Of a DNA stretch of 64,000 nt, positions 9,099-44,607 are shown one piece after another (the first letter of the stretch is position 1; every line of letters starts with the position of its first letter). Origin of the DNA: Bdellovibrionota bacterium (lineage in GTDB: Bacteria > Bdellovibrionota > Bdellovibrionia > Bdellovibrionales > Bdellovibrionaceae); the NCBI GenBank assembly GCA_963170155.1, contig CAUJGP010000021.1, positions 62,001 through 126,000 on the forward strand, written 5' to 3'. The position numbers and the translations under genes are program-made. The notes below the pieces were generated by a model. It was given only the letters and a program-made list of their open reading frames with translations, made no database searches and was not told the DNA's origin.

Positions 9099-10097
9099 GT
9101 GTATAAAGTTAAAACAAAATTGACGGACTTGTTGGGCATACAGGTCCCTATCATTGGTGCACCTATGTTTCTTGTCTCAAATGAAGATATGGTCGTTGAG
9201 ATTTCGGAAGCTGGAGGAATTGGGGCTTTCCCAGCCCTTAATTTTCGTCCCATTGAAAATTATAAAAAGGCTCTCATGGAGATTCGCAGCCGAACAACAA
9301 AGCCCATAGGAGTGAATATTATCGTTAATAAATCCAATCAAAGGCAGTCCGACGACTTGCGGATCGGACTTGATTGTGGAGTGAACCTTTTTATCACTTC
9401 ACTAGGAAATCCCAAAGAGGTGATTAAAGAGGCGCATCGTAATGGTGCCAAGGTTTTTTGTGATGTTATCAATTTAAAACATGCTTTGAAAGTTCAAGAA
9501 ATGGGAGCTGATGGGGTGATTGCTGTGGGGGTCGGTGCAGGAGGTCATGCAGGTCCTGTTTCTCCAGTAGTTTTGATCCCTTGGTTGGTTCGCCAGTTGG
9601 AGATCCCTGTCATTGCGGCCGGTGGCATTGCGGATGGTCGGGGGTTGGCTGCAATGTTGGCTCTGGGGGCCAGTGGTGTGAGTGTCGGAACTCGTTTTAT
9701 TGCGTCTCGAGAGGCTCGGGTGGGTGCTGATTATAAACAAGCTATTTTAAAAGCAACTCCTGAGGATATTATGCTGACCAGTCGTATTTCTGGAACGCCA
9801 GCAACAGTGATCAAAACCCCCTATACAGAAAAAATGGGAAGTGATTTGCCTTGGGCCATTAACCTTCTCAAAGACCATCCTGTAACTAAAAAATATGTTG
9901 TTCCATTAATTCATCTTTTGGGAATGAGAGCTTTAGAGGGGGCTGTGGAAAAGCCCACTTGGAAATCGGTTTGGTGTGCAGGCCAAAGTGTAGGGCTTAT
10001 TGAAAGTGAATTGAGTTGTCAGGAAATCGTGTATAAAATGATAGAAGAGTATAAAGAGATTTTAGGTCAATTACCACATGTGGAGGATTATAAGTGA
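9099..10097 (+). CDS. nitronate monooxygenase-like FMN-dependent TIM-barrel protein
   Basis: 332 residues of the nitronate monooxygenase (2-nitropropane dioxygenase) family, which binds FMN and oxidises alkyl nitronates; some relatives are FabK-type enoyl reductases or of unknown role. Visible signatures are the N-terminal IQVPIIGAPMF strand, GVGAGGHAGP near residue 145 (the catalytic His/flavin loop), and the phosphate-binding stretches IAAGGIADGRG and GASGVSVGTRFIAS near residues 170-205. Translation starts at GTG 9099 with GGAG upstream. The stop overlaps the start of the DUF4442 gene (GTGATG), so the two form a coupled pair. The true substrate is uncertain. Confidence 0.85.
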   Translation: MYKVKTKLTDLLGIQVPIIGAPMFLVSNEDMVVEISEAGGIGAFPALNFRPIENYKKALMEIRSRTTKPIGVNIIVNKSNQRQSDDLRIGLDCGVNLFITSLGNPKEVIKEAHRNGAKVFCDVINLKHALKVQEMGADGVIAVGVGAGGHAGPVSPVVLIPWLVRQLEIPVIAAGGIADGRGLAAMLALGASGVSVGTRFIASREARVGADYKQAILKATPEDIMLTSRISGTPATVIKTPYTEKMGSDLPWAINLLKDHPVTKKYVVPLIHLLGMRALEGAVEKPTWKSVWCAGQSVGLIESELSCQEIVYKMIEEYKEILGQLPHVEDYK

Positions 10098-34012: not shown

Positions 34013-35614
34013 GTGTCTGAGATTTCATTAAAAAATCTGATACATAAAGCTTTGAGTGACTTTGCCGATCATGTTCTTTTGGAAGACTTCCAAAGTTCAT
34101 GGACAGGACATCAGTTGCAATCCTGCATTCCTTCTATCGTACAAAAAATTATCCAACAAACTTTGCCGGGTTCAAGAGTGGGAATCTGTTTTCATAATTC
34201 CGCGTCTCAAGGGATAGCTATTCTTGCAACTCATTTATCTGATCGAGTCCCGGTGATGATTAATAGCGTAGATTTAATTGAAGGAAAGATCGATTGGATT
34301 CGAAAAGCTAAACTTAACTTCATTATCACCTCAGAAGAATTGGCTGGCTTGATTAAGGTTCCTCATTTGGTCTTAACAGAGAATGGATTGGCTAAGGAAT
34401 TAGTTAGTAAAACGAGTATATTGGGAGAGCTTGATCAAGTTTTATTTATGCCCCCCAAGGGCACAGGAGTTATCCTTTTTACCTCTGGATCCACGGGAGA
34501 ACCTAAGGAAGTTTATGTCCCCGAAAAAGGAATCATAAAAAGTGTCATGGAGTTGAAGCAGAAATTTGATCTTTCTTCAAAAACAGTAGCGTCGATCATA
34601 CTTCCTGTTTGTCATAGCATGGCTTTGAATACTCAGTTCTACCCCACATTTCTCTATGGTGGCAAAAGTCATTTTTATAATATCCGGCTATCAATGAATA
34701 AAGTGTTCAGAAATATTTCCAATGATAAAATTACTTTTGTATCCATGATTGGTGAGATTGTACGAACCTGTTGGGAAGAAAAGAACCTTAGAAAGCTTCC
34801 ACCTTGTGAGACTGTCACCCATGTTCAATTAGCAGGTGGAATGATTTCTCAAAAACATTTAGAGATGACTCGCGATTTATTTCCCCAAGCTGTTATTCAT
34901 AAAGGATACGGTCTCACAGAGGCGATTCGGGTGACTATGGTTTCCAGCCGCGAAAAAGCTTTTTATACGTCTGCTGTTGGAAAGCCACTTCCCTTTCTTG
35001 ATATCGAGATCCGAAATGAGCGTGGCGATGTCTTGCCGAATGGGCAAACAGGAGAAATTTTTGTTAAAGGAGATAGTGTGATGCTCGGTTTGCGCGCCCT
35101 ATCTTCAATGGAGATGCGGATCGCCAGTCCAAATCATTTTTTACCAACAGGAGATCTTGGGACGATAGATTCTGAAGGTTATCTTCATGTGACGGGTCGC
35201 CTTGATAGCCTTTTTAAAATCAATGGAAAACGTGTTGCTGGGGCTGAGATTGAGAAGATGGCACTTGAATCTTCTTCTCAGTTTCGTTTTGCCAAGGCAT
35301 TACTTGTGACGGATGAAAATATCGGCCGTTCAAAAATTGTACTTTTTATAGAGTTGGATCGAGCGAGTTGGAAGGATGGGGCTTTAAATTTAGAAAAAGA
35401 AACGCAAGAGCTTTTGTTTCAACGAATGAAACTATTAAATGTACCGCCAAAAGAAGTGGTATTTACTCCTCACATTCCAAGGACTTCTAACGGTAAGTTG
35501 AACATTCCTGCTTTGAAAAGAATTTGGAGCATACAATCCATGCTTCAGCCTGTAGAAAAAAAAATTCCATTCAATTTAAATCTATTTAGTGTCAATGAAG
35601 TGGTATTTTTGTAA
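34013..35614 (+). CDS. AMP-dependent acyl-activating enzyme (acyl-CoA/ACP ligase)
   Basis: 533 residues of the ANL adenylate-forming superfamily. Motifs: LFTSGSTGEPKEV at 156-168 (phosphate loop), GYGLTEAIRV near 303 (adenine site), PTGDLGTIDSEGYLHVTGR near 380 (ribose and hinge), and the catalytic Lys in PRTSNGKLNI near 500. It activates a carboxylic acid as acyl-AMP and transfers it to CoA or to a carrier protein; with an acp gene in the cluster, loading a starter unit is likely. Translation starts at GTG with AAGGAG eight bases upstream. It is the first gene of the biosynthetic cluster. Confidence 0.9.
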   Translation: MSEISLKNLIHKALSDFADHVLLEDFQSSWTGHQLQSCIPSIVQKIIQQTLPGSRVGICFHNSASQGIAILATHLSDRVPVMINSVDLIEGKIDWIRKAKLNFIITSEELAGLIKVPHLVLTENGLAKELVSKTSILGELDQVLFMPPKGTGVILFTSGSTGEPKEVYVPEKGIIKSVMELKQKFDLSSKTVASIILPVCHSMALNTQFYPTFLYGGKSHFYNIRLSMNKVFRNISNDKITFVSMIGEIVRTCWEEKNLRKLPPCETVTHVQLAGGMISQKHLEMTRDLFPQAVIHKGYGLTEAIRVTMVSSREKAFYTSAVGKPLPFLDIEIRNERGDVLPNGQTGEIFVKGDSVMLGLRALSSMEMRIASPNHFLPTGDLGTIDSEGYLHVTGRLDSLFKINGKRVAGAEIEKMALESSSQFRFAKALLVTDENIGRSKIVLFIELDRASWKDGALNLEKETQELLFQRMKLLNVPPKEVVFTPHIPRTSNGKLNIPALKRIWSIQSMLQPVEKKIPFNLNLFSVNEVVFL

Positions 35615-35713
35615 CCGGATTGAATCTGAAATTAATTGAATGTAAGGTTAAATTGTTTTACTAATTTCAAAAATTTTTTAATTTTTAAATGTAACAAATA
35701 AAGGGTAAAATGA

Positions 35714-36970
35714 ATGAAAAAGAGATTTAGTATTTTTATTAAAATCCTAGTTGTGATTCTAATTCCTTTTGTGACGTTGGCAGTTCAGGCAAAACCATTT
35801 AAGCGTGTTTTAGTTATCAGTGGCGGTGGGATTAATCCAGGGTTGGCTTTGGGAATGATCGCTGGTATTCAGTCTTCAGGGTGGATGCCGGACTTAGTAA
35901 TTGCAACTTGTGGAGCGGGTATCGGTAGCATAGTTCACAATGCTGAAAAATCCACGGAAGCAAGTCTGCAGTTGATGAAATCCCAAGAGTTTTACAAAGC
36001 TTTAAGCGAAGTTAAAATTGAAACTTCCAGTGGCATAGCGCTCATGAAAAAAATTGAAAAAGCAAAGGATACATCTATTTACCCTGACATTTTTACAAAC
36101 TTGCTTCTTCATTCTCCCAATAGCTTTCCAAAACTCATAAAAACCACTGAATTCAATACAAATTCTGCACATCCTAAATTAATTTTAATTTCATCTCGAT
36201 CTAATTTTGGTCCTCAAGATGTGGGGCAAATTCGCAATAATCAACCTCTTTTTCAGCAAGTTTATTTTACAGATACAGAGACGGCTAAGTTACTTCAAGG
36301 TTGGAAGCTTCCTGATCAGTTTGCCTTCCCCAATACAACAGTGCAAAAAGACACTTTGGCTTTTGGGGAGTACGATTTAATTACGGCAATGAGAGCTGGA
36401 ATCTCTGATCCCTATCTTTTAAATCCGAGCATTGTTGACGGTCACTATTATTTTACAGGTGCTGTGGATCTTTATCCCATTGATCTGGCTTTAGCTCTTG
36501 GAGATGAAGTTGTAACCACGTATCCTGCGAATCTCTTCAAAGATTATGAAGATGTTGTCTTTATGTCAGCTTTCGGTTTCAAGCAAACAACAAGAGCACT
36601 TGAGGCCATTCAACATAAGTCTGTTAAATGGATTGATATTAGCGGAATGGATGATCTTAGTTTTAATCCAACGCGTGAGATTATTAATATGAAAAGTGGC
36701 ATTCCTGATACTTACAGCAAGTACGAAAAGAAGATTACTGAGCAGTGGAAATTTGGTTATGACAGAGGATTCGAGGCTATTAAGTCGGCTCCTGGTGCAG
36801 CTAAAGATGTAAGAACTCATTTAAGAAAGCCTATTAACCCTAAATTACGTGACCGTTTTTCCTGTGAAAATGCAAATGAGTGGGCGACTGAAAGACGAAG
36901 TTCTTGTACCAGCGATAGAAGAGATGGTTGTGATCGTTATTCGAGTAAAAAATGCACTCCATTAAGATGA
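35714..36970 (+). CDS. exported patatin-like protein lacking the catalytic Ser
   Basis: 418 residues with a signal peptide (about 1-26, ending VQA). The patatin oxyanion motif is present (SGGGINPGLALG, residues 36-47), and the usual Asp is in IVDGHYYFTGAVD, the family's DGG/DGA position. The nucleophile elbow, normally GxSxG, reads GAGIG at 67-71, with Gly where Ser should be, so it is unlikely to be a normal phospholipase. The C-terminal 40 residues are Arg/Lys-rich with four cysteines (SCENANEW, SSCTSDRR, DGCDRY, KKCTPLR). It is the second cluster gene, 99 bases after the ligase. Confidence 0.75.
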   Translation: MKKRFSIFIKILVVILIPFVTLAVQAKPFKRVLVISGGGINPGLALGMIAGIQSSGWMPDLVIATCGAGIGSIVHNAEKSTEASLQLMKSQEFYKALSEVKIETSSGIALMKKIEKAKDTSIYPDIFTNLLLHSPNSFPKLIKTTEFNTNSAHPKLILISSRSNFGPQDVGQIRNNQPLFQQVYFTDTETAKLLQGWKLPDQFAFPNTTVQKDTLAFGEYDLITAMRAGISDPYLLNPSIVDGHYYFTGAVDLYPIDLALALGDEVVTTYPANLFKDYEDVVFMSAFGFKQTTRALEAIQHKSVKWIDISGMDDLSFNPTREIINMKSGIPDTYSKYEKKITEQWKFGYDRGFEAIKSAPGAAKDVRTHLRKPINPKLRDRFSCENANEWATERRSSCTSDRRDGCDRYSSKKCTPLR

Positions 36971-37236
36971 TTACGATTTAAGAAAAGCGAAAAGACCTAT
37001 TCATGTAAAGTTAATAGAGGGGTCAAGACGAACAAATTCATGAGGGACTCTTATGCATAAGGAAGGATTGAGCAATTAGTCTATCTTTAAAACTATGAAA
37101 AAATTCCACTCATTAGGAAGGAATTGGAAATTTCGCTGAAAATATAATAAAAAATATTTAGTTTTCTTATTTTCAGACCAGAATAAATCTGTGTTGATTT
37201 GAAGAGTATGATAATACAGCTATTTTTGAGGTTTAA

Positions 37237-37698
37237 ATGCGTTGGCTTTTGATTGATCAAATTCTTGAATGTGAGCCTGGAGTTAAAGCTAAAGGTGTAA
37301 AAACCTTCTCTCGTTCTGAAGAGTTTTTTCAGGATCATTTTCCTGGGATGCCGATTGTTCCTGGTGTCTTACAGATTGAAATGATGGCTCAGATGGCAGG
37401 AAAATGTTATGCTATCTCAAATTCAGAAGTTCTTCCTGTTTTAGGAACAGTAAAGGCAGCAAAGTTTTATGGAAATATAAATCCAGGGGATCGTTGCTTT
37501 ATCCATGCTAATATCATTAAGGCTTCTTCCTCTTTTTTGATGGCGGATTGTCATGTTGAGGTTGAAGGAAAAAAAGTTTCTAGCGCCTCGATCTTATTTG
37601 GTTACGTTAAAAGAGATCGTTTGAACTCAAAAGAATTTGATGCGGTTACAGAAGAATGGAAAAAGCGTCAATTACTGGCCTCTGGGGTCGAAGCATGA
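37237..37698 (+). CDS. FabZ/FabA-like hotdog dehydratase (cluster copy)
   Basis: 153 residues. The hotdog catalytic pair is visible: His34 in FQDHFPGMP and Glu48 in PGVLQIEMMAQ. Such enzymes dehydrate 3-hydroxyacyl-ACP to trans-2-enoyl-ACP. A second, ordinary fabZ sits in the lpx operon at 47602, so this one should serve the cluster product. GAGG stands five bases before the ATG. The last four bases overlap the next gene (ATGA). C-terminal 25 residues are charged. Confidence 0.85.
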   Translation: MRWLLIDQILECEPGVKAKGVKTFSRSEEFFQDHFPGMPIVPGVLQIEMMAQMAGKCYAISNSEVLPVLGTVKAAKFYGNINPGDRCFIHANIIKASSSFLMADCHVEVEGKKVSSASILFGYVKRDRLNSKEFDAVTEEWKKRQLLASGVEA

Positions 37699-38519
37699 AT
37701 GACAAAATAGCGACAGCATCTTCTTTGAGAGTCCTATGGCAGAAACACCAGATCCCCGATTTATCCCTGGCTGCTCAAGCTTGGGTAGACCCTGTTTTTG
37801 AAGATTCTATTCCCAACATTCGTCGTCTTGCTGTTGAAAATAGTGATATCGTTGTTCCTGATCCAAAGGCTTTTCGTTCGATGAGTCGGGCTTCTTTGGT
37901 TTTGTCATCCTGGGCCGAGGAAATCAAATCAGTATTATCACCCTTTTTAGAGCAATCTTCTTTTTCGGTGGGTATTTATTGTGCTGTTGAAAATGGTCCT
38001 ATCGATGGTCCATCCACTGCAGAAATCATCAAACGTAGTTCTGAGCAATTTGATGTTTCTTTTGCGGAAGCTTACCGAAAACTAAGAAATCCAAAAATGT
38101 ATTTAAAACAACTTCCCAATTTGGTGCCTGCGCAGCTGGGGATTTCGCTGGGTGTACAAGGGCCTATGAACGTGTACACCCATTCTATCGATGGGAGTCT
38201 ACAGGCCTTAGAGCAGGCTAAGATAGATCTAAGCAGTCAATTTGTGAAAGCCGCATTGGTAGTTTCAGCTCATACTTTTGATGACTTTTGGGTGGTTAAG
38301 AGATCCAGAAAACAAGATGCTCGAGTTCTTTGTGAAGGGGCCGCGGGATTGATTCTTGTCAATACCGAGGTTGATTCGGGGATTGACAACAAAAATAGTT
38401 TAATGGATATGAAAAAAAGTTTAAAATCAGATTTTTTCTATGATCTGCAGAATTATTTTGGTATTTCAGATCCGTTAGTGAATTTAATAAGAAATAGAGA
38501 GGGAAGGTATAATATATGA
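37695..38519 (+). CDS. short beta-ketoacyl-synthase-like protein without active-site Cys
   Basis: 274 residues, about two-thirds the length of a ketosynthase. It resembles the N-terminal half of the KS fold: LGISLGVQGPMNVYTHSIDGSLQALEQAK near 148-175 matches the region around the active-site Cys, but Ile/Asp stand where Cys is expected, and the segment with the two catalytic His residues is absent. Inactive KS-like partners are known as chain-length factors in type II polyketide systems, and similar short KS-like proteins occur in aryl-polyene clusters. It is coupled to the dehydratase gene (ATGA) and to acp downstream (four-base overlap), fitting a KS partner role. Confidence 0.7.
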   Translation: MNDKIATASSLRVLWQKHQIPDLSLAAQAWVDPVFEDSIPNIRRLAVENSDIVVPDPKAFRSMSRASLVLSSWAEEIKSVLSPFLEQSSFSVGIYCAVENGPIDGPSTAEIIKRSSEQFDVSFAEAYRKLRNPKMYLKQLPNLVPAQLGISLGVQGPMNVYTHSIDGSLQALEQAKIDLSSQFVKAALVVSAHTFDDFWVVKRSRKQDARVLCEGAAGLILVNTEVDSGIDNKNSLMDMKKSLKSDFFYDLQNYFGISDPLVNLIRNREGRYNI

Positions 38520-38797
38520 CACAAGAAGTTTTATTTAATTCTATAAAAGATGCTATCCGCGACGTGGTTAACAATCAAAAGTTAGATGTTGAGGCTAATA
38601 GTCTTTTAATTGGAGATCTTGGCTTAGAAAGCATTGATTTTTTAGATTTAAGCTCAGAAATTGAAAATACCATTGGTTTTGAGTTGGATTTTAAAGAAGT
38701 GGTAGAGCACCTGAAGCAAAAATCTTCGGGAGTTGCGGATATCAAAGGTCTAACCGTCCAAAACATCATTGATTTTATTGAAACTAAGAAGGCTTAG
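38516..38797 (+). CDS. acyl carrier protein
   Basis: 93 residues, acidic, all helical. The 4'-phosphopantetheine attachment Ser39 is in DLGLESIDFLDL, matching the DSL-type motif. It would carry the growing acyl chain between cluster enzymes. It needs a phosphopantetheinyl transferase, which is not encoded here. It overlaps the upstream KS-like gene by four bases and precedes the ketosynthase by 12 bases. Confidence 0.9.
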   Translation: MTQEVLFNSIKDAIRDVVNNQKLDVEANSLLIGDLGLESIDFLDLSSEIENTIGFELDFKEVVEHLKQKSSGVADIKGLTVQNIIDFIETKKA

Positions 38798-38809
38798 GAG
38801 TTCATCTCT

Positions 38810-40069
38810 ATGAGGGGCTCTGATATTGTCATCACAGCATGTGGGCTTGTCTCGCCATTGGGAAGCACTTTAAAGGATTTTGAACAAGGTCTTTTTGAAG
38901 GCAAGAGTGGTGTTAAATCAATACGCGGCTCAATGGTGTCTGATAGTTTTCCCGTTCCTTATGCCGCTTATGTGGATCGTAAGGAACTCCCCTCAACCGA
39001 TTATTTCAAGAATGATGATACGCAGACCAAGATGAAATCTTGGTTGATGACGGCTGTGGCACTGGAATCTATCTTGAAAGATTTGAGCCCTCAGTTTCCC
39101 GTGGATGCTATTATTTATGGGACAGCCGATGGCGTTTCTTTTGAGCAAGTGGCTGAGGTGCTCAAACAAAAAAAACAAAATTCTTTTGATGAAACTAACT
39201 ATGATTTCATGAAGACGCGTTGTGAGTCCTCTCTGGAGGTTATTCATGATATTTTAAAAACAAATGGTTATGGAGATGTTTCCCCACAGAATACCATTTG
39301 CATTAATTCCGCATGTGCCACTGGGAATAACGTTTTGGGCATTGCTTTCAATGGGATTCGTAGCGGAGCCTGGGAGCGTTGCATTGTCGGAGGCGTGGAC
39401 GCTCGCTGTGAGCCGAGTAATTTTTTAAATTTCTTTTATTTAGGAGCTTTGACAACAGCAGATGTGTCTCCTGAAAAGGCGAGTCGTCCTTTTTCGGTGG
39501 ATCGCTCTGGTTTCGTGCGTGGGGAAGGAGCTGCGATTTTAATGGTGGAAACCCGTGAATCAGCTTTAGCACGGGGCGCTCAGATTTTATGTCAAGTGAG
39601 TGGCTACGGCTTTACCAGCGATGCTTTTCGTTTAACAGATGGGCGTGATGATGGCGCTTCTGTGATTGAAGCGATGTCTCAAGCTATAAGATCAGCTCAT
39701 TTGACTCCAGAGAACATCGATTACATCAATGCCCATGGAACATCAACTCCTCTAAACGATCGTTTAGAGTCTTATTCCATTAAAAAAGTTTTTGGTGACA
39801 GGGCTCATAAAATTCCAATTAGTTCCTTAAAATCCCAGATTGGTCATTCGACGATTGCCTCAAGCGCTTTAGAAGCTATTGCTTGCGTGCTGATGTTGAA
39901 AAATCAAAAAGTGTCTCCAACTTTGAATTTCACTGGAGGTGATCCTGAATGTGATTTGGATTATGTCGCAGAAGGAACGCGATCTGTAAAGTTGGATCAT
40001 GTCTTGAGTAATAGTTTTGGTTTTGGTGGGCAGAATGCCTGTATTGTATTTTCCAAGGAGTCACCATGA
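38810..40069 (+). CDS. beta-ketoacyl-ACP synthase (FabF/KS type)
   Basis: 419 residues with a complete catalytic triad: Cys169 in NSACATGNN, His309 in NAHGTSTPLND and His346 in KSQIGHSTIAS, with Lys341. This is the elongating condensing enzyme of fatty acid and type II polyketide synthesis. The C-terminus has the glycine-rich SNSFGFGGQNACIVF. It would condense malonyl-ACP with the chain on the cluster's ACP. It overlaps the ketoreductase gene by four bases. Confidence 0.93.
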   Translation: MRGSDIVITACGLVSPLGSTLKDFEQGLFEGKSGVKSIRGSMVSDSFPVPYAAYVDRKELPSTDYFKNDDTQTKMKSWLMTAVALESILKDLSPQFPVDAIIYGTADGVSFEQVAEVLKQKKQNSFDETNYDFMKTRCESSLEVIHDILKTNGYGDVSPQNTICINSACATGNNVLGIAFNGIRSGAWERCIVGGVDARCEPSNFLNFFYLGALTTADVSPEKASRPFSVDRSGFVRGEGAAILMVETRESALARGAQILCQVSGYGFTSDAFRLTDGRDDGASVIEAMSQAIRSAHLTPENIDYINAHGTSTPLNDRLESYSIKKVFGDRAHKIPISSLKSQIGHSTIASSALEAIACVLMLKNQKVSPTLNFTGGDPECDLDYVAEGTRSVKLDHVLSNSFGFGGQNACIVFSKESP

Positions 40070-40845
40070 AGCGGAGGCTGGCGATCGTCACAGGTGGAAC
40101 TTCTGGAATTGGCTTTGGAATTGCTAAAAAACTGATTCCTCATTGTCATTTAGCTCTTGTTTATGGAAGAGATCATCAAAAAGCGCAGAGTGCTTTGAAT
40201 CAACTTCAGCAAGACGCTAACGAAATGGATCCTGATTTCAAAGTGCAAGTCTATGCTCAGGATCTTCTGCAATTAGAAGAAATACCTGCTTTAGTTAAAA
40301 AGATTACGGCTGACTTTGGTGAAGCACCTGGGGTTTTGGTGAACTCTGCGGGACGATTAAGGGATGGGCTATTTCAATTATCCAGCATCAAAGATCATGA
40401 AGAGTTATTAAAAGAACACCTCCTGGCCCCTATGGCACTTTGCCATTCCGTGATCAAAGGAATGTCGATGGCAAAATTTGGTCGGATCATTAATTTGAGT
40501 TCAATTAGCGCCCAATACTCTAAGCGTGGGCAGACTAACTATGCGGCGGCAAAGGGAGGGATTGAATCTTTCACTCGAACTTTAGCGTTAGAAGTGGCCC
40601 ATCGAGGCATTACGGTCAACGCCATTGCTCCTGGATTGATTCAAACACCAATGACTCAGGGGTTAGTCGAGAAAATTCAAGCTTCTTCAGAAGGCATTCG
40701 AGGGCGTATTCCCGCTGGGAGATTAGGAACTCCTGAAGATATCGGCTCTCTGGCCGCTTTTCTTTGCTCAGAAGAGGCTTCTTATATCACGGGAGTCTCT
40801 ATTGCTATTGATGGTGGGCGCTCGTTGGGAGATCCACAATCATGA
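40066..40845 (+). CDS. 3-ketoacyl-ACP reductase (FabG-like SDR)
   Basis: 259 residues. The NADP site GGTSGIGFGIA, NSAG, and the catalytic Ser145/146-Tyr159-Lys163 (LSSISAQ ... NYAAAKGG) are all present, as in FabG. It would reduce the 3-ketoacyl-ACP made by the neighbouring ketosynthase. Four-base overlaps at both ends place it in a tightly coupled series KS-KR-ER. Confidence 0.92.
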   Translation: MKRRLAIVTGGTSGIGFGIAKKLIPHCHLALVYGRDHQKAQSALNQLQQDANEMDPDFKVQVYAQDLLQLEEIPALVKKITADFGEAPGVLVNSAGRLRDGLFQLSSIKDHEELLKEHLLAPMALCHSVIKGMSMAKFGRIINLSSISAQYSKRGQTNYAAAKGGIESFTRTLALEVAHRGITVNAIAPGLIQTPMTQGLVEKIQASSEGIRGRIPAGRLGTPEDIGSLAAFLCSEEASYITGVSIAIDGGRSLGDPQS

Positions 40846-41624
40846 CATCAACAACAATATCTGAAGGACAATATAATTTATTTACAGATAAAACAGCTGT
40901 GATTACGGGTGGAACAAGGGGGATCGGTCGAGCCGTTTCCCTTAAATTAGCTCGCCAAGGAGCGAAAGTTTTAGCTCTTTATGGAAGAGATTCTAAAAGC
41001 GCCGGAGAACTTGATTCTATTGCGAAACAAGAAGGACTTAAAATTGTATGTATCAAAGGGGATCTTTGTAATGACGAAAAATTCTCTTTGGTCGTGGAAG
41101 CGATTAAGGCTCAGGCTTCGCGAATTGACTTCTTGGTTCATTGTGCCGCTAGCGGTGTTCATCGAGATGCGATGGACTTAACATTAAAGCATTTACGTTG
41201 GACCTTTGAAATTAATGTCTTTGCAATACATCACCTCCTTCAGAGTTTAGTGGAGATGATGCCCTCAGGGGCACGAGTGATCGGCATCACATCTTCGGGT
41301 GGAACCAGGGTGATTCCTTATTATGCTGCGGTTGGGAGCAGCAAGGGAGCTCTTGAAGCTTTATTTAGGCACTATGCTTATGAACTTGCTCCTAAAGGGA
41401 TTGCGGTGAATTTAGTTTGTCCAGGTTTGGTTTTGACAGATGCAGTGGATGCTTTTCCGGATCGAGATGCGAGAGTGGAAAAAGCGAAACAAGCAACTCC
41501 TTCGGGGGAATTGGTGATTCCAGAGGATGTTGCAGAAATGATTTCTTTTTTATGTGAACCCCGTTCTGGACAAGTGATCGGTCAGACGATTGTGATTGAT
41601 GGGGGGAAAACCCTTCTCAGTTAA
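40842..41624 (+). CDS. FabL-type enoyl-ACP reductase (SDR)
   Basis: 260 residues of the short-chain dehydrogenase family with NAD(P) site GGTRGIGRAV. The usual YxxxK is absent: four residues before Lys168 is Val. Instead Tyr161 and Lys168 are spaced as Y-x6-K (PYYAAVGSSKGALEAL). That spacing and its surroundings match enoyl-ACP reductase III (FabL), as does the C-terminal GQTIVIDGG. It should saturate the enoyl-ACP made by the dehydratase. With KS, KR and DH it completes a full reductive cycle. Enoyl-reductase specificity is inferred from the motif, not shown. Confidence 0.8.
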   Translation: MTSTTISEGQYNLFTDKTAVITGGTRGIGRAVSLKLARQGAKVLALYGRDSKSAGELDSIAKQEGLKIVCIKGDLCNDEKFSLVVEAIKAQASRIDFLVHCAASGVHRDAMDLTLKHLRWTFEINVFAIHHLLQSLVEMMPSGARVIGITSSGGTRVIPYYAAVGSSKGALEALFRHYAYELAPKGIAVNLVCPGLVLTDAVDAFPDRDARVEKAKQATPSGELVIPEDVAEMISFLCEPRSGQVIGQTIVIDGGKTLLS

Positions 41625-41784
41625 TCGGTATCAAATAGATTGTATGGCGAGATCATTTTCCAGACCGCCAAATCGGAAATATGAGATGTTGTCAGCAACT
41701 CAATTCAAACCTGAGCGCTAGCCTCTGTTTTGGAACGAGTTGGGCGTGAGCCAACGAAAAGCTCTTTAGTTTCTTGATACCGAT
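41624..41784 (+). repeat. region bounded by an 11-base perfect inverted repeat
   Basis: ATCGGTATCAA at 41624-41634 and its exact complement TTGATACCGAT at 41774-41784 enclose 139 bases. Inside, GTTGGGC-GTGA-GCCAAC (about 41740) forms a strong hairpin. The left arm overlaps the stop codon of the enoyl-reductase gene and the right arm ends about 28 bases before the hydrolase start. It could be a structured mRNA leader, an attenuator between the synthase genes and the tailoring genes, or a small mobile-element scar. Confidence 0.5.
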
Positions 41785-41812
41785 GAGATAACTTTCAGTG
41801 AGGATGATATCT

Positions 41813-42634
41813 ATGGCGATGGCATTACAGAGTTTTGGCAATAAAAAAGGACCTATTATCGTGGGGATTCCTGGCTTGTTGGGAGGCTCTGAGGACTTTC
41901 GTGATATTGTTGAAACCTTTGGTGATTCATATCATTTTTTAATTTTTGATCCTAATTCTGAGCGGAGAGAGTTAGGGTTAGGAGCTTTGACTGCTGAAGT
42001 CATGCAAGAAATTCAATTGGATTGTGATGCTGACGAATTAATGCAAGAAATCAAAAAACACACGAATGAACCGGTATGGATGTGTGGAATTTCTATTGGT
42101 GGAAAGATTATTTATGACTTTTCCACGAAATACCCCCACTCTGTACGAGGGGCTGTCATTACCGATGTGGGGCTTGGGTCTTTTAGTGAATCGGAGCTTT
42201 ATATCTTTGTTGAAAATATCGTTGATCAAATTAATTTGAATCAACCATGGCCTGAGCTTAAAAAGGATTTACGTAATTTGGTTTCTGACGATAGCTTGAG
42301 ATCTCTGATTCAATTTCAACTTCATTATCCAATGCAGAAACCCCCAGCCGCTTGGAAAATGGGAATGTTTCATTTTAAGTCGATGTTAAATCGGCAATCC
42401 ATAGATGATCAATGGGAGACTTATCAAAAAGTGGATGGTATTCTCGCTGAAAATAACTCAACCCTTCATGTGATGAAGGCCACGCATTTGAGCGCTATCA
42501 ATGAAGCTGATTGTGAAAAATTAAAAAAATTAAAATCAGTAAAAATGCACGTTATTGAAGATTCAAGCCATTTTCTTCAGTTTACTCACAAGGATATTTT
42601 ATTTAATACTATTGATCATATGATAAAAGGATAA
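41813..42634 (+). CDS. alpha/beta hydrolase (possible thioesterase) of the cluster
   Basis: 273 residues. The oxyanion region GIPGLLGGSEDF, the nucleophile Ser94 in CGISIGGK, and the catalytic His in EDSSHFLQF near the C-terminus fit an alpha/beta hydrolase. A lid region lies between. In context it probably hydrolyses the acyl-ACP (editing or release thioesterase), but esterase activity on another substrate is possible. The ATG at 41813 is preferred, with GTGAGG nine to ten bases ahead; ATG 41804 and GTG 41798 lack good spacing. Six bases separate it from asnB. Confidence 0.75.
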   Translation: MAMALQSFGNKKGPIIVGIPGLLGGSEDFRDIVETFGDSYHFLIFDPNSERRELGLGALTAEVMQEIQLDCDADELMQEIKKHTNEPVWMCGISIGGKIIYDFSTKYPHSVRGAVITDVGLGSFSESELYIFVENIVDQINLNQPWPELKKDLRNLVSDDSLRSLIQFQLHYPMQKPPAAWKMGMFHFKSMLNRQSIDDQWETYQKVDGILAENNSTLHVMKATHLSAINEADCEKLKKLKSVKMHVIEDSSHFLQFTHKDILFNTIDHMIKG

Positions 42635-42639
42635 CCGGT

Positions 42640-44607
42640 ATGTGTGGGGTTTGGGCTCGGGCTAATATAAAAAAATCATTGGCTCTGGATGAGTTGTTGT
42701 TTCCTGTAAAGATGCTCAACCATCGCGGTCCTGACTCTTATGGTTGGTTTGCCGATCAGAAAGTAGGATTGGTCCACACCCGTTTGAGCATTATTGATTT
42801 GGGCGGTGGGGCGCAGCCTTTACAGAGTTTTGATCAGGGGCTTATCGGTATCGTCAATGGCGAGCTCTATGATTACCAAGAGCACAGGAACCGTTTGATT
42901 TCAAAGGGAGTTCATTTTCAAACTCAAAGTGATAGTGAAGTGTTGTTGAATTTATTTGCGCGAGAAGGGGCATCGGCTTTGCGAGGTTTATCGGGTGAGT
43001 GGGCTTTTATTTTTTATCACCCAAAGGAGCAAAAAATATTTTTTGCTCGAGACCCTCATGGTGTTAAGCCGCTTTTTTATCATTGGGACCAAGACTCATT
43101 GACTTTATCGAGTGAGGTCAAGGCCCTTAAAAATGAAAAACCTGTTTTGAGTGAAGATTATGTAAAAACTTTTTTAGCTCGCACTTTAATGCCCAAAGGG
43201 ACTGCTATTGATCAGTGCTTTCATGTTTTACCAGGTCGGCTTTATACATTTGATATTAAACAAAATAAATTGAGTTCAAAGATAGTTGATCCTCTTCCTT
43301 TGGGTTGTCATCGAGTGTTGAAGGGAGAGGAAGCCATCGAGGCGACCTATGATGCCCTTCGAAATTCGGTGAAAAGAAGATTGGTTGCGGATGTTGAAGT
43401 GGGTTGTTACCTCAGCGGAGGCGTTGATAGTGCTCTTATCACAGCTTTAGCTGTAGAGTTGGGTGCCAAGCCAAAGGCTTTTACTGTTGGTTTTGCAGAC
43501 CGTGATTTTGATGAGCAGGGGATTGCCGTCAAGATCGCTCAGCATCTAGGGATTCCCCATTACGCTTGCCAGCTCAATGGAAAAAACTTTTTACCCAGTT
43601 TGATTCGATCTATCGTGGCGTTTGAAAACCCTATTACTAATCCACATGGAGCTGCCAAAAACTTGCTTTCTCAACTCGCTAGCGAACAGGTGAAGGTGGT
43701 TTTGTCTGGGGAAGGCGCTGATGAGTGGTTTGGTGGTTATGCTTATTTGCGCATTCAAAAAATTATCAATTTTTCTCAAAGACATCCTCAATTAGGGCGC
43801 CAGCTTCTTCATAAATTTATGGAGCAGGAAAAAGGTCGAAGCATGAATCATCTTGATGGTCGCTCACAAATCAATCGAGAGCTTTTTGAAAAATATTTTT
43901 ATGGGTATCAACCTGCAGTTTTAGGGCGCGTGATCAAGCACAGAGCCTACGAGTATTTGACCGGGGATTCTTTAGCGCAAAGGCTTGGTTCCATGTCGAA
44001 AGAGCTTTCCGAGATGCTACAAGAAGACTGGCCAGAGGTGAATCATCAGAGTTCCGCTTGGGATTTAAATGCTTGGTTTGGATTGCGCGTGGATTTATTG
44101 CACTATATTTTAGCAAATGTGGGTGATCGCCAAGAGATGAGTCATTCCTTGGAGGGACGAACTCCCTTTCTAGACCCTGAAGTGATTAATGTCGCGGCGA
44201 GGATTCAAGAGAAGACTCATATGAAAGGGCTCACTGAAAAATACGTTTTAAAGAAAATAGCGGGAAAATTGTTTCCGCGAGAAATTGCGGAGCGTTCAAA
44301 ACACCCTTTCTTTGCTCCCTTGAAGTATTTTTATTTACGGGGCAATCAAGAGTCGATTAAGCACTATATTGAGACAGCAAGAGAGGCAACACCGTGGCTC
44401 GCATGGAATCATGTGGAACGGTTGCTAGGTCACCCTCAATCTATTGAATCAGCTCTGTTCTCTTTGCAAAATTCCACCAGGATTCTTTTGTTTTCATTAG
44501 GAGTCTTAGTGGAGCATCTGAGGGCCGATCCTCCTCTTATTCCCAGAGGCTTTCATATCCCCACAACGGTAGAAGAAATTCTTCCTTATCGACGTCTGGA
44601 GAGCTGA
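42640..44607 (+). CDS. asnB: asparagine-synthetase-type glutamine-hydrolysing amidotransferase
   Basis: 655 residues. The class II glutaminase domain starts at Cys2 (MCGVWARAN), with RGPDSYGW and VNGELYDY; the synthetase domain has the PP-loop YLSGGVDSAL near 260 and GEGADEWFGGY near 355. AsnB makes asparagine from aspartate and glutamine via an AMP intermediate, and many cluster-encoded relatives amidate another carboxylic acid. Here it closes the acyl-biosynthesis cluster, six bases after the hydrolase, which favours a tailoring role, but a housekeeping asparagine synthetase cannot be excluded. Translation starts at ATG 42640 because Cys must follow the initiator Met. Confidence 0.9.
   Translation: MCGVWARANIKKSLALDELLFPVKMLNHRGPDSYGWFADQKVGLVHTRLSIIDLGGGAQPLQSFDQGLIGIVNGELYDYQEHRNRLISKGVHFQTQSDSEVLLNLFAREGASALRGLSGEWAFIFYHPKEQKIFFARDPHGVKPLFYHWDQDSLTLSSEVKALKNEKPVLSEDYVKTFLARTLMPKGTAIDQCFHVLPGRLYTFDIKQNKLSSKIVDPLPLGCHRVLKGEEAIEATYDALRNSVKRRLVADVEVGCYLSGGVDSALITALAVELGAKPKAFTVGFADRDFDEQGIAVKIAQHLGIPHYACQLNGKNFLPSLIRSIVAFENPITNPHGAAKNLLSQLASEQVKVVLSGEGADEWFGGYAYLRIQKIINFSQRHPQLGRQLLHKFMEQEKGRSMNHLDGRSQINRELFEKYFYGYQPAVLGRVIKHRAYEYLTGDSLAQRLGSMSKELSEMLQEDWPEVNHQSSAWDLNAWFGLRVDLLHYILANVGDRQEMSHSLEGRTPFLDPEVINVAARIQEKTHMKGLTEKYVLKKIAGKLFPREIAERSKHPFFAPLKYFYLRGNQESIKHYIETAREATPWLAWNHVERLLGHPQSIESALFSLQNSTRILLFSLGVLVEHLRADPPLIPRGFHIPTTVEEILPYRRLES

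Follow-up and report, generated by a model that had tools for sequence, protein, structure and literature searches.

In the window, a 64,000-nucleotide stretch of a Bdellovibrionota genome (assembly GCA_963170155.1, contig CAUJGP010000021.1, positions 62,001 to 126,000), ten consecutive open reading frames on the plus strand (34013-44607) very probably encode a dedicated reducing type II synthase. The cluster combines an intact ketosynthase (KS), a half-size KS-like protein (KSL), an acyl carrier protein (ACP), a ketoreductase (KR), a dehydratase (DH), and an enoyl reductase (ER) with a ligase (LIG), a patatin-fold protein (PAT), an alpha/beta hydrolase (ABH), and an AsnB-type amidotransferase (ASN) (Table 1). 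Amidation of the released chain by ASN is close to an even prospect. A broader proposal is put forward tentatively: that the cluster represents a class of type II synthase, restricted to Bdellovibrionota among the genomes sampled, in which a distinct half-size chain-length factor (CLF) lineage and a FabL-type ER would yield saturated chains and an AsnB-type enzyme would convert them to primary fatty amides.

Ketosynthase and Ketosynthase-like Protein

KSL matches no Pfam family at 1e-3, and its profile finds no match among the sequences of the Protein Data Bank (PDB); a fold search was used in its place. The predicted structure of KSL, with a mean predicted local distance difference test score (pLDDT) of 80, matches ketosynthases and CLF chains, including the Iga12 chain 6kxf_B. 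The protein is half the size of these folds and lacks a cysteine at the active-site position. A first-pass annotation of the same DNA had described it as Cys-less, which holds for the active site only, as cysteines are present elsewhere in the chain. On the basis of the predicted fold, KSL is proposed to be a CLF that partners KS. A half-size CLF with a single thiolase domain is established for ApeO-ApeC (PMC8358021). Similarity to ApeC was not detected in the sequence of KSL, its KS fold and half size notwithstanding.

In a tree of 48 KSs, a 100/100 branch splits the cluster KSs from 34 FabF-type sequences, including the FabF of this genome, which clusters with the FabF proteins of relatives. 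The cluster KS stands apart from all housekeeping FabF proteins sampled and is not a FabF copy. When genome contigs were searched with KS for relatives outside the phylum, matches reached at most 49% identity, and those placed in the tree are FabF-type. The cluster KSs share their side of the tree with KSs of the phylum that adjoin half-size KS-like proteins; they are not resolved as a single clade, and long branches leave the deeper order unsure. Further pairs of a KS and a half-size KS-like protein, distant from this cluster, are found in the phylum at loci L125, L133, L134, and L135, which are perhaps of the aryl-polyene type.

Enoyl Reductase

ER is FabL-like by its best model, its structural match, and its Y-x6-K motif. 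The closest PDB match is FabL 3oic (167 bits versus 112 for the runner-up), and the score against the curated FabL model (242 bits) lies below the cut-off of 328. Bacillus subtilis FabL thus shares the Y-x6-K motif with ER and is its best PDB relative, whereas ER falls under the NCBI FabL cut-off and resides in a secondary cluster rather than in a housekeeping fatty acid synthase (FAS) locus. An ER gene is found in the window and in genomes G017, G164, G368, G367, G208, G103, and G209.

No FabI was found among the short-chain dehydrogenase/reductase matches inspected in the genome, and no FabV scored above the cut-off. The window also encodes, at 9099-10097, a FabK-like flavoprotein (208 bits versus a cut-off of 453) that has similar-scoring counterparts in relatives lacking the cluster. 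Housekeeping enoyl reduction is probably filled outside the cluster, with the FabK-like protein as a possible enzyme. ER was accordingly set aside as the sole enoyl reductase of the genome, since the FabK-like candidate makes a housekeeping activity supplied from elsewhere probable.

The FabZ-, FabG-, and FabL-like components would also suit a second FAS that produces a fatty acid for membrane lipids, with the amidotransferase acting elsewhere, for example on a head group (sugar or amino acid) bearing the chain. The position of the cluster, directly upstream of bamA-skp-fabZ-like envelope genes, and the match of ASN to the XrtA/PEP-CTERM amidotransferase model TIGR03108 (287 bits, under the cut-off of 817) are in keeping with such a role. 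This explanation is nevertheless unlikely: in the tree, KS does not behave as a FabF, and its partner is a half-size KS-like protein. The conserved cluster genes also include no acyltransferase, glycosyltransferase, or exporter/transporter, so that envelope attachment of the product, earlier suggested as perhaps a membrane-bound lipid, has no genetic support here.

Distribution and Conservation of the Cluster

A search of 369 genomes of the phylum with the KSL profile identified nine genomes, from four families, with relatives scoring at least 297 bits, after which scores drop to 114. KSL adjoins ACP, KS, and a dehydratase in all nine, and in eight of the nine a ligase, KR, ER, or hydrolase lies alongside, as far as the contigs extend. 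LIG, DH, KSL, ACP, KS, KR, ER, and ABH occur together in G017, G368, G367, G208, G103, and G209. The genes of G164 are distributed over two short contigs, PAT-DH-KSL-ACP-KS and ER-ASN-ABH, with LIG and KR outside these sequences. No convincing KSL relatives are present in 399 Pseudomonadota (best score, 36 bits), and none above 36 bits in 50 other genomes. The cluster is a conserved, lineage-restricted unit and not a chance neighborhood.

The gene content varies among loci. The genomes of family f12, G208, G103, and G209 (loci L129, L130, and L131), contain the same genes in rearranged, partly divergent order, with an added gene of 527-537 codons adjoining the ligase; both copies examined encode an amidase domain of the permuted papain-like C92 family (YaeF/YiiX). 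G350 has a reduced variant without recognizable KR, ER, or ASN, which may make a different product. Its locus (L132, 8708-13660) encodes a UbiA-like prenyltransferase (just below the Pfam cut-off), DH, KSL, ACP, KS, and a B12-binding radical SAM enzyme. Near the cluster of G017, a genome in which no ASN of this lineage was found, a divergently oriented gene (L124, 2081-4639) encodes an enzyme of the penicillin-amidase family (PF01804, 347 bits).

The KSs of G017, G368, G367, G208, G103, and G209 are 45-62% identical to the window KS, which, although from family f1, is equally close by identity to those of G368 (f29), G164 (f12), and G017 (f1). The KS identities thus do not track family lines, which suggests that the cluster was transferred or differentially lost. 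A foreign origin was also considered from composition and gave no signal (40.6% G+C in the cluster versus 40.5% in the rest).

Association of the Amidotransferase with the Synthase

ASN has the two domains that mark the AsnB superfamily, an N-terminal Cys glutaminase and a synthetase domain bearing SGGxDS and the catalytic Glu and Lys, with C2, SGGVDS 259, SGEGADE 356, and K554 conserved, and it passes the asparagine synthase cut-off of TIGR01536 (Table 1). Its lineage, at an identity of at least 43%, comprises proteins from G000, G164, G368, G367, G209, and G103, all cluster-bearing; beyond it, the next best among the matches listed has at most 36% identity. The lineage is therefore present in six of the nine cluster-bearing genomes and in none of the 360 others (p = 2.5e-11, a guide only, as the genomes are not independent). 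In addition, ASN adjoins ABH in G000, G164, G368, G103, and G209, as does a truncated copy in G208, and ER and ASN are neighbors in G164 and G368. A functional tie between the AsnB enzyme and the synthase, as the first-pass annotation had it, is supported by this co-occurrence and by the adjacency in distant genomes.

The same pattern makes it very improbable that ASN is the asparagine synthetase of the genome and a neighbor by chance. ASN does score above the equivalog cut-off and is, GuaA excepted, the only gene of the asparagine synthase family in the genome; against this stand the confinement of its lineage to cluster-bearing genomes and its retention within the cluster in rearranged loci at approximately 42% identity. 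Most relatives have no close counterpart of ASN, and a housekeeping asparagine synthetase was set aside on the phyletic pattern.

Proposed Pathway

In the proposed pathway, the ligase would activate a carboxylic acid and load it onto the cluster ACP, and KS with KSL as CLF would extend the chain by malonyl units that the FabD of the host would charge. KR, DH, and the FabL-type ER would reduce each extension fully or partly, giving a saturated or mostly saturated acyl-ACP from which ABH would free the acid. ASN would then activate the carboxylate with ATP and aminate it with glutamine-derived ammonia to yield a primary acyl amide. The assignments of saturation, amidation, and starter loading are inferred from the enzyme families, and the pairing of KS with KSL and the mode of release are likewise proposed.

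LIG contains the motifs TSGSTGEPK, YGLTE, and PRTSNGK, scores 131 bits against the XrtA/PEP-CTERM ligase model TIGR03098 (under the cut-off of 592), and is the probable loader of the cluster ACP, whose serine is conserved across homologues. Such a role fits the ligase homologue of G017 (L124, 6052-8376), which is fused to a C-terminal phosphopantetheinyl transferase (PPTase)-like domain with GIDVE and WVAKESAFK motifs (PF01648, 20.8 bits, under the cut-off of 25). In ABH, S99, D123, and H258 are invariant in seven homologues; the catalytic residues are assigned as S99 and H258, with D123 a probable third.

The cluster had been called self-contained, a description that does not hold: neither a malonyl-transacylase nor a PPTase is encoded within it, so both activities must be supplied from outside. 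The housekeeping locus with fabD, fabG, and fabF lies on a separate contig (fabD, contig C8).

A tested precedent for release followed by amidation is provided, by analogy, by the fungal SoaABC system, in which SoaA is a reducing polyketide synthase (PKS), SoaB a hydrolase, and SoaC an AS-B-type enzyme that amidates sorbic acid and does not use Asp (PMC13284220). Similar to the pathway proposed here, SoaABC unites a reducing PKS, an acid-freeing hydrolase, and an AS-B-type amidating enzyme; it differs in being a type I megasynthase of unrelated architecture that makes a short polyene and has no ligase. Because SoaC retains the AsnB catalytic residues without using Asp, these residues cannot separate amidation at the end of the chain from amidation of the starter.

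The main rival to end-amidation, itself unlikely, is that ASN acts at the start, producing a diacid-derived amide starter (e.g. malonamoyl-ACP) and thus a chain that ends in an omega amide and has its acid group either free or esterified. OxyD is an AsnB-type amidotransferase in the type II PKS for oxytetracycline (PMC6164072), and glutarimide clusters pair an ACP, an acyltransferase, and an AsnB homologue with a proposed role of this kind (PMC7756379). The cluster ligase could put such an acid on ACP, and the adjacency of ER and ASN in G164 and G368 would be compatible with this order of events. However, it is the hydrolase, not the ligase, that neighbors ASN, both in the window and in the homologues, a dedicated acyltransferase is lacking, unlike in glutarimide clusters, and G017 retains ligase and synthase without ASN.

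Several observations weigh against end-amidation by ASN and release by ABH as drawn here. The best PDB match of ASN is a true AsnB, so that a substrate other than Asp is unproved by sequence; the second-best match, the hydroxyamidotransferase 7ylz, speaks for amidation. G017 (83% complete) has the synthase with no ASN found, and the ASN of G367 is on a different contig from the cluster; amidation may therefore be optional. The ASN of G208 (L129, 1319-1930) has no synthetase domain: an in-frame loss leaves the glutaminase part and the extreme C terminus, through deletion or assembly error. The f12 loci of G208, G103, and G209 hold an extra small gene, which in G103 encodes a YbgC/FadM-like thioesterase, so that ABH may not be the sole releasing enzyme.

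Organization of the Cluster

The coordinates of the ten genes are collected in Table 1. All lie where the first-pass annotation placed them, and Pfam and NCBIfam profile searches back the family assignments (ANL ligase, FabA/FabZ, ACP, KS, KR, FabL-type ER, alpha/beta hydrolase, and AsnB); the residues it quoted for KS, KR, and ER are all correct.

Table 1. Genes of the cluster in the window
Gene	Product	Position	Strand	Support and remarks
LIG	ANL acyl/aryl-AMP ligase, 533 residues	34013..35614	+	PF00501, 140 bits
PAT	Patatin-fold protein with N-terminal signal-like/transmembrane segment and degenerate catalytic dyad	35714..36970	+	
DH	FabZ-like hotdog dehydratase	37237..37698	+	PF07977; FabZ model, 94 bits; HFPGMPIVPGVLQIE motif
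KSL	Half-size KS-like protein, about 274 residues, proposed chain-length factor	37695..38519	+	Annotated open reading frame from 37656
ACP	Acyl carrier protein	38516..38797	+	PF00550; Ser in LGLESIDFLDL
KS	Intact ketosynthase, C169/H309/H346	38810..40069	+	PF00109 and PF02801
KR	FabG-type ketoreductase, Y159-xxx-K163	40066..40845	+	TIGR01830, 204 bits
ER	FabL-type enoyl-ACP reductase, Y161-x6-K168	40842..41624	+	NF005975 (FabL), 242 bits, best model
ABH	Alpha/beta hydrolase, proposed releasing thioesterase	41798..42634	+	PF00561/PF12146, weak
ASN	AsnB-type glutamine-dependent amidotransferase, 655 residues	42640..44607	+	TIGR01536, 365 bits (cut-off 267)

The four-base overlaps reported for the central genes are seen at KSL/ACP, KS/KR, and KR/ER, with a fourth at DH/KSL (ATGA) if KSL begins at the ATG at 37695, a start favored by the homologues as well as by the overlap itself. 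The remaining junctions are +99, +266, +12, +173, and +5 nucleotides. With the gaps of 266 and 173 nucleotides, a single transcript for all ten genes is plausible rather than certain. A scan for promoters and terminators returned fewer promoter-like sites than shuffled sequence and terminator-like sites (17 versus 9.7 expected) that are mostly intragenic; its outcome is uninformative.

PAT had been described as patatin-like, which applies to its predicted fold: the significant fold matches are patatin-family structures only, from a low-confidence model. The Pfam patatin match is below the cut-off, and both residues of the GxSxG Ser and DGG/A Asp dyad that marks a patatin phospholipase are lost in the window, where GAGIG and TGA take their places. 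The homologues in G164, G368, and G367 retain the Ser and not the Asp.

Comparison with Known Systems

The cluster resembles aryl-polyene clusters (ApeO-ApeC, ApeE/F/H/I/P/Q) in encoding an ACP, an acyl-ACP synthetase, a FabZ-like DH, and a KR next to a KS with a putative half-size CLF, and it would likewise draw malonyl units from the host. The Escherichia coli gene list comprises a second KS, a second ACP, two DHs, a methyltransferase, acyltransferases, and Lol/RND export genes (PMC8253772). In contrast, the present cluster has no second KS (ApeR), second ACP, second DH, methyltransferase, acyltransferases, or Lol/RND export genes; it adds an ER and an AsnB enzyme, and KSL is not recognizable as ApeC from sequence. 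Aryl-polyene clusters lack an ER, which leaves their chain conjugated. The ER here, together with the absence of the export genes, the acyltransferases, and a second KS and ACP, shows that the cluster is not an aryl-polyene cluster, which agrees with the earlier proposal of a distinct ligase-primed type II synthase of KS and KS-like protein with its own ER.

The highly reducing type II PKS for ishigamide (Iga11/Iga12) likewise has KS/CLF (here KS with KSL as putative CLF), KR, DH, and ACP as discrete genes in one cluster. Systems of this type make polyenes, and the described set has no ER (PMC10698177), whereas an ER gene is present here; the Iga12 chain is also longer (~360 residues, compared with about 250 here). 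OxyD and the glutarimide AsnB homologues share with ASN the service of a discrete-ACP polyketide synthase by an AsnB-type amidotransferase, and differ in that the substrate is the starter (malonamate) and the synthases are aromatic or trans-AT modular. We know of no FabL-type ER in these systems.

The same set was met only in other Bdellovibrionota and in no characterized fatty acid or aryl-polyene pathway, a finding that would have refuted the first-pass reading. Consistent with the first-pass statement that no such cluster was known, no description of a bacterial cluster of this composition was found in the open-access literature searched. The titles and abstracts listed on primary fatty amides with asparagine synthetase, and on Bdellovibrionota cluster surveys, contain no matching cluster, and the literature searched holds no description of a bacterial route to primary fatty amides of such a kind.

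The known products of type II synthases with CLFs are aromatic compounds and polyenes, a range that a dedicated ER would extend to saturated chains. The clustered hydrolase and AsnB-type enzyme would constitute a direct, testable genetic route to bacterial acyl amides. That the cluster is scattered over four families points to a specialized trait of these bacteria, such as a signal, surfactant, envelope lipid, or weapon, rather than to core metabolism.

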